A stretch of DNA of 38,555 nt from Candidatus Saccharimonadota bacterium (GTDB lineage: Bacteria; Patescibacteriota; Saccharimonadia; Saccharimonadales; Saccharimonadaceae), in assembly GCA_009781895.1 (NCBI GenBank), contig WQUV01000004.1, positions 1 to 38,555 on the forward strand, in the 5' to 3' direction. Shown here piece after piece: positions 3,314-35,960 of this stretch (positions are counted from its first letter, which is position 1; every line of letters begins with the position of its first letter). Made by a program: the position numbers and the translations under genes. A model generated the notes under the pieces. That model made no database searches. It was not told the DNA's origin and worked only from the letters and a program-made list of their open reading frames with translations.

Positions 3314-4822
3314 TTATTTTGCGTATTCTATAGCTCGTGTCTCGCGGACAACGTTCACCTTTATTACGCCCGGGTATGACATCGTACTTTCAATCTTGTC
3401 TGCAATGTCGCGCGCCAGCTTAAAGGCTGTCAGGTCATCAATCTGCTTCGGCTCAACAATTACGCGAATCTCGCGACCTGCCTGTAATGCGTAAGCTTTC
3501 TCGATGCCATCAAACGACAGCGCCACATTCTCTAGTTCTTTCATGCGCTCGGCAAAGTTCTCGGCACTGATATTACGTGCACCTGGTCGTGCCGCCGAAA
3601 TTGCGTCAACAATCTTCACGATTACCGCTTCAACCGTTGTCGGCTCGATATCCTCGTGGTGCGCTTCCATAGCGTGCACGATTCGATCTTTAATGCCGTA
3701 CTTACGCGCAATCTCTGCGCCGATCTCTGCGTGCTTGCCCTCGATCTTATGTGTCACTGCCTTGCCAATGTCATGTAGTAGTGTTGCGGTTTTAGTTATT
3801 CTTACGTCCGCGCCGACTTCTTCCGCAATCATTCCAGCGATATGCGCCATCTCGACTGAGTGTAGTAATACATTTTGCCCATATGAAGTTCGGAACTTTA
3901 GCTCACCTAGTAGCTTCAGGATGTCATGTGGTAGGCCAGTCACGCCTACTTCGCGTGCCGCATCCTCACCTGCTCGCATCGCTTCTTTATCAATTTGCTT
4001 GGTCGCTTTCTCAACCGCGTTCTCGATCGAGCTTGGATTTATCCGACCGTCTTTTAATAGTAGTTCTAACGCTACTCGCGCTACTTGTCTTCGTACTGGA
4101 TCGAACGAACTCAAGACCACCATGCCTGGGGTGTCATCAACTAAGAAGTCTACACCAGTTGCTGCCTGTAATGCGTGTACGTTACGCCCTTCTTTGCCAA
4201 TAATTCGGCCCTTCATTTCATCGTCAATCTTCACGGCTGTCACTGTACGATCTGCTGTCACTTCACTGCTCATGCGCTCCATAGCCGCCACCAAGATCGC
4301 TGCTGACGACTCCTCTGCTTCTCGACTAATCGCTTCTTGTTCTTTCTTGATTAAGCCTAGCAAATCAGCCTTGATATCGCGCTCAGTCATCTGGAATAGC
4401 TTAGTCTTTGCTTCTTCTTTCTTCAGCCCTGCGATCTTTTCTAGTTTGTCTTGTTGCTTAGTTCGGAGGTCTCGGATCTCGCCTTTTAGCGATTCAATCT
4501 CTTTGGTTTCTTTCTCTAGCTTGTCGCCCTTTTTGTCTAGCTGGTCAAGTTTCTTGTCTAGGTTACCTTCACGTTCGATTAGGCGTGCTTCCGCCTTTTT
4601 CATATCTTTGCGGATCTCGTCTTCTTCTCGCTTTGCCGCATTCTTGATGTCCATCGCGTTCTTTTGCGCTTCGAGCACCAGCTTGTCTGCCTCTTTTTTT
4701 GCCTTGGCGACTAGTGCGTCGGCTTTGCTGGCTGCGTTCTTTTCTTTGCTCTTAGAGTAGACTGTCACGCCACCTGCGCCCAGCGCTAAACCAGCGACTG
4801 CCGCTAATACCTCTATTACCAT
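3314..4822 (-). CDS. rny: Ribonuclease Y
   Basis: 502 aa, close to the usual ~520. RNase Y is a membrane-anchored endoribonuclease that starts mRNA decay. An N-terminal TM helix (about 3-21) is followed by a long charged coiled coil (about 25-185), a KH RNA-binding domain (about 192-255, GRIIGKEGRN at 205-214) and an HD phosphodiesterase domain with H321 and the HD pair at 350-351 (LLHDIGKA). The start is supported by GGAG at 4827-4830, 4 nt upstream of ATG. It is the first gene of the rny-comEC-tsaE unit. Confidence 0.96.
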   Translation of the reverse strand: MVIEVLAAVAGLALGAGGVTVYSKSKEKNAASKADALVAKAKKEADKLVLEAQKNAMDIKNAAKREEDEIRKDMKKAEARLIEREGNLDKKLDQLDKKGDKLEKETKEIESLKGEIRDLRTKQQDKLEKIAGLKKEEAKTKLFQMTERDIKADLLGLIKKEQEAISREAEESSAAILVAAMERMSSEVTADRTVTAVKIDDEMKGRIIGKEGRNVHALQAATGVDFLVDDTPGMVVLSSFDPVRRQVARVALELLLKDGRINPSSIENAVEKATKQIDKEAMRAGEDAAREVGVTGLPHDILKLLGELKFRTSYGQNVLLHSVEMAHIAGMIAEEVGADVRITKTATLLHDIGKAVTHKIEGKHAEIGAEIARKYGIKDRIVHAMEAHHEDIEPTTVEAVIVKIVDAISAARPGARNISAENFAERMKELENVALSFDGIEKAYALQAGREIRVIVEPKQIDDLTAFKLARDIADKIESTMSYPGVIKVNVVRETRAIEYAK

Positions 4823-19800: not shown

Positions 19801-19881
19801 CCTATAATAACGCCAGAATGATAGTTTTTAAGACAGCAAAGACTACCTCTGTCTCGAGGGCTATTATCCCGAGCGTCGTCC

Positions 19882-34232: not shown

Positions 34233-35960
34233 TTAGGTTTCGAGTGGCAAGTCTACTGGTGCCACATCTACCAACCGACCCTCAGTATGCGCACCACCAA
34301 AGTCCGATACTGTGAGCCGAAAGTCAAAGTTGTATTCTTGCAGGTCCCGCAAGTGAGATAGCTTCTCCGCCGCGCCCCACGCGCAAAGTCGGAAGTCGCG
34401 TCGCTCCTTGTCGCCGATTCGAAGTCCCACATGCTCTTTTTGCTTACCCATCAGTCGCTTCTCAAACAGCGTCCCTCGCACACGAAATAGCGGCTCCAAA
34501 TGCCCCTGCCCAAATGGCGCGAGGTCTTGCATCTCCTGCCAAAACTCCATCGATAACTCTGTCACATTCTCCACCGTCACGTCCGGCTGCGTCCGCAAAT
34601 ATTGCAGCTGATTAGTCAGCTTCAGTCCGCGATAATACTCTAGTATCGCCTTCTCGATCATCTCGAAGTTGATCAACTTCGCGCTCATACCGCCTGCCGC
34701 CGCATGCCCTCCGCCCTTCTCAATTAAGCCTAAATCTTGCAAGTGCCCAATCACGCCCGCGCACGAGAATTCACCGAAGCTTCTGGCGGAGCATTTTATC
34801 TTGACGTCAGCGGCTAGTTTCGCTTCCGTGGCAGTCAAGGCTGTTCCTGTCGCGGGGGCGGAACTAGCCGCTATCGTCCAGACAAACGCTGGCCGCTCAT
34901 AAGCCTCTACCAGCTTACTCGCCAGTAGCCCAATCAGTCCTTCATGCCACTCGCCCTTCACTACCACCACATCTTGCTTCACTTCTAGTCCTAGTATATC
35001 TTTCACGTCATCGACCGCTTTTTGCTGCTCTTGCCTTCGCTTCTGATTCAAGCTATCTAAGTCCATCGCTAGCCCCGATGTTTCCATCGAGTCGTCAGAC
35101 AGTAGTAAGTCCAGCGCTTTCCGCGGCGACTCCAGTCGTCCGCTCGCGTTAATCTTCGGACCCACCACGAACGCTAAAGTATATGTATCCAGTTGTTTCG
35201 CATCACGAATCAATTCCGCCAACCCTCGCCACTTCGTCTGCCTCATCACTTTCAGCCCGTACTTCACCAAGATGCGATTGTCACCTTTCAACGGCACCTG
35301 GTCGCACACCGTCCCGAGAGCGACCAGGTCCAGTAGCCACTTAGTCCATGCGCTTGCGGCGGATACTTCTGTGGCAGTCAGGGCTGTTCCTGTCGCAGAA
35401 GTATTTGGCGCGAGAGCTCGTACTAACTGGAACGCTACACCCACACCAGCCAAATCGCGGAACGGATACTTGCTATCCTCGCGCTTCGGATTTATCACCG
35501 CCACTGCCTTTGGCAGTTCGCCAATCTCGTGATGATCCGTGATAATCACGTCCACCCCACGCTTCTTTAGCTCCGCTACAATCTCCAGGTCTCGGCTACC
35601 GCAGTCCACCGTAATCAGTAATTTTGTCTCCAGGTCCATTGTTTCGGTAATCCGTTTCGGCAGGCCATAGCCGTCCACTAGTCGCTCTGGTAAATCATAG
35701 CTCACATTCGCGCCCAAATGTCGTAGTCCGCGTACTAGCACAGCGGTTGCCGTTACGCCATCCGCGTCATAGTCGCCAAAGACCAAAATCAACTCTTGGT
35801 TCTTTATCGCTTTCTGGATACGCTTCACCGCTTTCGCCATGTCGGGCAAGCTATCCGGCGCGTTCAAGCTCTCGTACTTTGGGCGCAGAAAACCTTCGGC
35901 CGTCTCCGGGCTAATTCCCCGCGCCTTTAGCAATTTCTGAAATAACGGGCTATAGCTCAC
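34233..35960 (-). CDS. recJ: Single-stranded-DNA exonuclease RecJ with two inserted hairpin elements
   Basis: 575 aa. 5'-3' ssDNA exonuclease of repair and recombination. DHH-domain motifs are GDYDADG (62-68), DCGS (119-122), TDHHE (141-145) and LVALGTVCDQVPL. The DHHA1 domain has GGGHAAAGG (about 416-424), followed by an OB-like C-terminal domain. Two segments that have no counterpart in typical RecJ, residues about 183-203 and 363-384, both carry ATGTALTATE. They are encoded by two related hairpin-forming DNA elements and fall in loops outside the motifs, so activity is probably kept. It starts 3 nt after the stop of the winged-helix gene. Confidence 0.95.
   Translation of the reverse strand: MSYSPLFQKLLKARGISPETAEGFLRPKYESLNAPDSLPDMAKAVKRIQKAIKNQELILVFGDYDADGVTATAVLVRGLRHLGANVSYDLPERLVDGYGLPKRITETMDLETKLLITVDCGSRDLEIVAELKKRGVDVIITDHHEIGELPKAVAVINPKREDSKYPFRDLAGVGVAFQLVRALAPNTSATGTALTATEVSAASAWTKWLLDLVALGTVCDQVPLKGDNRILVKYGLKVMRQTKWRGLAELIRDAKQLDTYTLAFVVGPKINASGRLESPRKALDLLLSDDSMETSGLAMDLDSLNQKRRQEQQKAVDDVKDILGLEVKQDVVVVKGEWHEGLIGLLASKLVEAYERPAFVWTIAASSAPATGTALTATEAKLAADVKIKCSARSFGEFSCAGVIGHLQDLGLIEKGGGHAAAGGMSAKLINFEMIEKAILEYYRGLKLTNQLQYLRTQPDVTVENVTELSMEFWQEMQDLAPFGQGHLEPLFRVRGTLFEKRLMGKQKEHVGLRIGDKERRDFRLCAWGAAEKLSHLRDLQEYNFDFRLTVSDFGGAHTEGRLVDVAPVDLPLET
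34809..34872. repeat. Hairpin element inside recJ, copy A
   Basis: 20-position stem (34809-34828 with 34853-34872; 17 Watson-Crick pairs and 3 G·T on the plus strand) enclosing a 24-base loop (34829-34852). The loop matches that of copy B at 23 of 24 positions. It is in frame with recJ and encodes about 21 residues. Confidence 0.85.
35353..35414. repeat. Hairpin element inside recJ, copy B
   Basis: 19-position stem (35353-35371 with 35396-35414; 15 Watson-Crick, 3 G·T on the plus strand, 1 mismatch; the 9 pairs next to the loop are perfect) around a 24-base loop (35372-35395). Stem sequence differs from copy A at most positions, yet pairing is kept. Confidence 0.85.

Follow-up and report, generated by a model that had tools for sequence, protein, structure and literature searches.

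Dispersed in-frame palindromes with locus-specific paired arms and strict strand polarity in a small Saccharimonadaceae genome

Two hairpins within the recJ gene of a Candidatus Saccharimonadota bacterium belong to a dispersed group of palindromes, termed family A, which together with a second group, family B, are interpreted here as non-autonomous, REP/MITE-like mobile DNA palindromes, with movement coupled to replication and arms rewritten in bulk. The probability assigned to this reading is about 0.5. The window analysed is the whole 38,555-nt stretch of contig WQUV01000004.1 that carries recJ. An earlier note on this DNA had described the two recJ hairpins as having a common loop and variable paired arms; both are present with the same pattern and slightly different pair counts, and the observation is confirmed for a family much larger than first described. 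The recJ copies and related features of the window are as follows.

34233..35960, minus strand: recJ host gene, 575 aa, with DHH, DHHA1 and RecJ OB domains (Pfam)
34803..34874, plus strand: copy 1, in-frame insert in recJ (orthologue alignment; covariance-model match at 34806-34875, E 2.8e-16)
34795..34829, plus strand: copy 1 left arm, with pairing that extends into host codons (inverted repeat I1, 78% complementary)
34830..34851, plus strand: copy 1 core, loop and closing stem, GGCAGTCAAGGCTGTTCCTGTC (pattern search)
34852..34886, plus strand: copy 1 right arm (inverted repeat I1)
35349..35408, plus strand: copy 2, in-frame insert in recJ (orthologue alignment; covariance-model match at 35349-35418, E 1.8e-14)
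35337..35372, plus strand: copy 2 left arm (inverted repeat I2, 73% complementary)
35373..35394, plus strand: copy 2 core, GGCAGTCAGGGCTGTTCCTGTC (pattern search)
35395..35430, plus strand: copy 2 right arm (inverted repeat I2)
19808..19877, plus strand: third, weaker family A copy, between ruvC and a 396-aa ORF (covariance-model match, E 6e-5 genome-wide)

In copy 1, 72 nt separate the conserved residues FVWT and KIKC of RecJ, a net gain of 20 aa relative to G003 and G001, and in copy 2, 60 nt separate VRALA and WTKW, a net gain of about 17 aa relative to G003. The arms of the two copies (34795-34834/34847-34886, 78%, and 35337-35377/35390-35430, 73%) are the strongest short-range inverted repeats of the window, and both cores match TGGCAGTCARGGCTGTTCCTGTCG with 0 mismatches, compared with 0 matches in 100 window shuffles. 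The first 22 pairs comprise 17 Watson-Crick and 5 G.T pairs in copy 1, and 17 Watson-Crick pairs, 4 G.T pairs and 1 mismatch in copy 2. As both arms lie largely within the inserted segment, a simple inverted duplication of the host flank is not demonstrated. Site 2 of recJ in the sister species G001 holds another palindrome, a family B copy of 125 nt. The recJ gene of G009 (L058) contains a further in-frame palindrome, encoding NCHSELVSESKKILKQVQDD, which we take to be a repeat type widespread in other bacteria. Elsewhere in the window, a segment that encodes FGYLYNWCAAMG and YWSS motifs occurs at positions 14-1412 as a tandem pair of diverged copies, reminiscent of a repeated domain of surface proteins.

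The loop GNCAGTCAAGGCTGTTCCTGNC tops about 29 hairpins in the 0.68-Mb genome (a 677,865-base assembly). A pattern search for this core with up to three mismatches returns 19 copies in the assembly and 0 for the reversed control pattern, and the covariance model R1, built from 20 family A copies and applied at a cut-off of E<1e-3, identifies 29 loci in this genome and about five in the sister species G003, where the core is the variant GRCANTAAGGGCGGTTCTGYC. Family A was thus detected in this species and one sister only, family B being the widespread one. In 100 relatives the core pattern search gives two genomes with one weak match each, model R1 finds no family A copy in 59 other genomes of the taxonomic family (60 searched, one positive), and the exact core has six scattered matches in 84,980 genomes, which is approximately the chance expectation for an 18-mer in 257 Gb, and a match on one viral contig.

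The part common to family A copies is only about 36 nt long (CTTCTGAGGCAGTCAAGGCTGTTCCTGCCTCAGAAG), and outside this core the identity of the arms between copies is 29%, the value for random sequence. Each arm pairs better with its own partner than with the arms of other copies to a distance of about 37 nt from the loop, with 106 Watson-Crick pairs versus 54.6 after permutation at pairs 13-17 and 80 versus 42 at pairs 23-27. Over the 25-pair stem, 77.8% of cells are paired, compared with 59.7% when shuffled and 34-48% after sliding, and the covariation score of the stem is 0.553 versus 0.233 shuffled. Further copies in the genome, the clean lack of both inserts in RecJ orthologues and significant covariation all bear out the proposal, made in the earlier note from two copies, of a mobile palindromic element tolerated in frame.

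Arms that are locus-specific and paired would also be produced if the core inserted into hairpins already present in the target, the arms then being the old hairpin, and the re-use of sites between species is compatible with such an origin. This route is nonetheless very improbable, as orthologous empty sites are not more hairpin-prone than the remainder of those genes (mean percentile 0.47, n=19) and both recJ arms lie inside the inserted segment. Furthermore, a scan of 366 kb of the genome for hairpins with a 12-nt loop and at least 16 of 22 Watson-Crick pairs yields 11, all 11 of which are family A, leaving no otherwise similar hairpins. The unenriched empty sites and the lack of left-over hairpins led to rejection of this candidate.

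Most family A copies are in-frame inserts of 48-72 nt between conserved host residues, with a few copies intergenic, and the gains relative to orthologues are clean at about 15 genes. The host genes, named from their translations with a Pfam check for RecJ only, include RecJ, LeuRS, IleRS, LysRS, PheT, Obg, UvrC, TilS, ClpC and others, and orthologue alignments reveal clean gains also in Tgt, a FemX-like protein and a TrmA-like methylase. One codon phase is used by 25 of the about 26 in-gene copies, with approximately half in each gene orientation, where sense copies encode SETVKAVPVSE-like and antisense copies TGTALTATE-like peptides. The one clear exception in phase is found in a UvrD-like gene, where the TGA of the usual core would block the frame and the core has lost this TGA. 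Outside the insertions, a synonymous-codon shuffle of the host flanks gives a pairing of 104 versus 90.6 (P=0.0055); this small excess is driven by a few genes and is suggestive only.

The orientation of the elements follows the strand composition of the chromosome. On each contig all family A copies have one orientation, and the loop/core is on the C-rich strand in 29 of 29 copies, that is, on the plus strand of contigs with negative GC skew and on the minus strand of those with positive skew; the five G003 copies have the same polarity (5/5). Of 27 family B copies in G000, G001 and G003, 26 are on the G-rich strand, and the obg copy of G002 is an apparent further exception, judged from local skew. 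As the orientation of family A tracks the GC-skew strand and not the genes, it points to a process at the DNA level, and transcription is excluded as the organising principle. By the usual convention the G-rich strand is the leading strand, and the 16S rRNA, located in three genomes, lies in each of them on the C-rich strand, opposite to that convention. Third-position GC skew is very strong (0.6-0.7) in the stretches L243, L244 (G001:C2:80001-117713), L245, L247 and L248, which show one long stretch with most genes, as well as the 16S rRNA, on the C-rich strand.

This polarity bears directly on a role as structured RNA, for example an mRNA element or the antisense RNA that had been considered for the recJ copies. 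Stable folds with covariation would suit such an RNA, as would the prevalence of G.T over A.C mismatches at mid-arm positions of the core strand (50 versus 18 at pairs 10-18, P about 1e-4). Against it, orientation is independent of transcription, sense and antisense copies are nearly equal in number (13 and 11, respectively, in phase 1), and family B stems contain very few G.U pairs relative to two-sided changes. A search of Rfam gave no plausible match, only weak long-hairpin microRNA models far below the gathering score. An RNA function is therefore highly improbable, and antisense or regulatory RNA was dismissed on the GC-skew orientation, the presence in both gene orientations and the Rfam result. 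The mismatches, previously described as exclusively G.T, include no A.C on the plus strand in either recJ copy, but the bias is weak family-wide (103 G.T versus 77 A.C overall). In family B the tally on the C-rich strand is 26 G.T versus 13 A.C (P about 0.05). The excess of G.T over A.C hints at folding on the C-rich strand, though not decisively.

Family B elements are about 120 nt long and form a three-way junction with an outer stem, two inner hairpins, one of them capped by CCYGTCGYCACRGG, and conserved joints. RNAalifold predicts 42 pairs, 29 of them with two-sided changes and very few G.U. Model R2 detects family B, which is spread over the taxonomic family, in 14 of 81 genomes, with 18 copies in G001, 15 in G002, 13 in G004, 11 in G027, 5 in G003 and 4 in this genome, and the same model finds none in about 32 genomes of other families. 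At L202 of G027, two adjoining copies in opposite orientation (G027:C24:3401-3522 and 3542-3661) constitute a natural REPIN-like dimer. At L071 and L072 (G001:C6:21652-22466), the same family B insert is present twice, 696 nt apart in one long ORF, apparently duplicated together with a protein repeat.

Comparison of the stems within family B reveals how the arms change. The outer stems are 18-25 bp long, nearly perfect and mostly locus-specific, and in pairs of copies with inner stems at least 95% identical the outer arms are 45% identical, against a baseline of 33-37%. The G027 copies L208 and L209 have an identical 48-nt core and different arms, each self-paired, and in some G001 copies (L066, L067 and L074) the inner arms are common and unique paired outer segments are added. 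Identical inner stems with almost unrelated outer arms indicate that the arms are renewed in bulk. The inner stem faces a like structural constraint, and slow compensation is therefore a poor explanation for the turnover of the outer arms; simple decay or compensatory drift is disfavoured by the faster turnover of the outer arms than of the inner stem.

Family B often occupies the same gene loops as family A. Each of the four species of the genus has inserts in the obg and trxB loops, three species have them in the LeuRS loop and three in the TilS loop, and two have them at recJ site 2; most of these inserts belong to different families. The protein loops that tolerate inserts may be few. Family B has opposite gene orientations in obg of G001 and G002, and its frame in LeuRS differs between G001 and G003, so that at least these family B inserts are independent insertions. 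A third structured insert type is seen in G002 tilS (L137) and G003 obg (L142), and its joints GGGTGAATTG and CAAGAGGGGC, common around different stems, may represent a family C in the same sites.

The filling of the same gene loops in several species is at the same time an argument for the strongest non-selfish rival, a host function, in which the hairpins would be polar DNA sites kept for replication, segregation or looping, undergoing compensatory evolution in place and lying in genes by chance. Indeed, re-use of gene loops by sister species is unexpected of a strictly random inserter unless few loops tolerate insertion, and strict polarity and strong covariation are as expected of such sites. 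A conserved function in place is, however, difficult to reconcile with one site holding different element families in different species, with the flipped obg and frame-shifted LeuRS copies of family B, with the absence of family A from 59 of the 60 other genomes of the taxonomic family, and with an outer-arm turnover exceeding that of the inner stem. Host-maintained sites are on balance unlikely.

Under the preferred reading, mobile elements coupled to replication, the unit would consist of the conserved core (about 36 nt in family A and about 60 nt in family B) and the flanking paired arms, and would move in the form of, or by way of, a folded single strand arising in replication, thereby fixing its orientation relative to the replication strand. 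In genes, copies would be retained only if inserted in frame, with a bland flexible peptide (TGTALTATE or SETVKAVPVSE) and in a tolerant loop, and the elements would be selfish. Bulk rewriting of the outer arms would accompany or follow insertion, and its simplest source would be template switching by fold-back at the fork, in which one arm becomes the reverse complement of the other and pairing is kept while the arm sequence turns over. Template switching creates or repairs stems in single events, and multi-base compensations are documented (PMC8794818); the favoured account of arm renewal, already raised in the earlier note, is that the arms are probably copied in this way. Dispersal, in-frame gain, polarity, pairing and rapid arm turnover are thus shown by the data, whereas the single-stranded step, template switching and selfish status are inferred.

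What moves the elements is a separate question. Classical REP or IS200-type elements would depend on a Y1 (HUH) transposase, so far unseen, that acts on the folded strand, with arms varying only by slow compensatory drift. Y1 elements, which recognise hairpins, work on the lagging-strand template (PMC6006769); this would give the polarity, and REPs are species-specific and can occupy genes without a frame break. However, there is no PF01797 match at E<=10 in G000-G003, a set that includes genomes 98.8% and 97% complete (the control was positive in 10 of 14 genomes), the consensus is without an evident GTAG or CGTC foot, and REP stems are common within a family, whereas arm identity here is random at 29%. 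A hidden Y1 system is accordingly quite unlikely. Reverse transcriptase was not found in G000 or G027, and those in G001 (two), G002 and G003 show no correlation with the elements. One G001 reverse transcriptase is located at L236:1324-2259 (G001:C2) and that of G003 at L235 (G003:C5); one of the G001 enzymes looks like the DGR type from its GIPIGNLTSQ motif. Neither a Y1 transposase (G000-G003) nor a reverse transcriptase (G000) is thus available as a mover, and no target-site duplication was recognised. Tentatively, the palindromes could be entirely free of transposase, with the core copied at forks by fold-back template switching, new locus-specific arms acquired at each insertion and orientation thereby fixed, although this version is somewhat doubtful.

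Several known systems have individual features in common with these elements. Integron attC sites are folded single strands with structure conserved more than sequence, in which the outer stem carries the conserved R boxes and the terminal part varies; the present elements are likewise conserved more in folding than in sequence, but here the outer stem is the variable part. Rickettsia palindromic elements are palindromes of about 150 bp found in frame in many unrelated genes, with a constant peptide and several families per genome (PMC10969869). Compared by description, they are alike in being in-frame palindromes in unrelated genes, with a constant peptide at tolerated positions, and unlike in that the present copies have only about 36 nt (A) or 60 nt (B) in common, their outer arms vary from copy to copy (29% identity in family A) and their orientation tracks the GC-skew strand. 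REPs and REPINs associated with RAYT (TnpA_REP, a Y1 HUH protein) are species-specific hairpins thought to move as single strands, and the polarity observed here (A, 29/29 C-rich; B, 26/27 G-rich) is that expected of single-strand transposition. Lagging-strand bias is documented for IS200/IS605 relatives, and frame-preserving insertions are known (PMC6006769, PMC3733652). Unlike the RAYT-associated elements, these have no Y1 gene in four genomes, stems that are not common between copies and no constant GTAG or GTGG foot visible in the alignment. CGTC-tagged REPs have no dedicated transposase and many intragenic copies in replication and repair genes (PMC3733652), but their stems are constant, their loops span 4-5 nt and they end in CGTC with a CCA tail, in contrast to the 12-nt loop and variable ends of family A. 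Quasipalindromes and template-switch mutations can make or repair a perfect stem in a single step by turning one arm into the reverse complement of the other (PMC8794818), but they represent a mutation process rather than an element and leave the dispersed conserved core unexplained. In the part of the literature covered by our search, no report of such elements in this group was found.

Taken together, families A and B are best described as RPE/REP-like protein-coding palindromic mobile elements, set apart by locus-specific arms, strict polarity, no recognisable transposase and recurrent loops. In-frame palindromes have so far been a curiosity of Rickettsia and REPs, and here they reside in essential enzymes of a 0.7-Mb genome, with the same protein loops re-used by unrelated families in sister species and the stems renewed while pairing is kept. 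The system allows tests of how REP-like elements move when they have no transposase, and of whether template switching, instead of stepwise compensation, gives rise to perfect stems. More generally, a DNA-level process can produce two-sided covariation, which need not imply a functional RNA.
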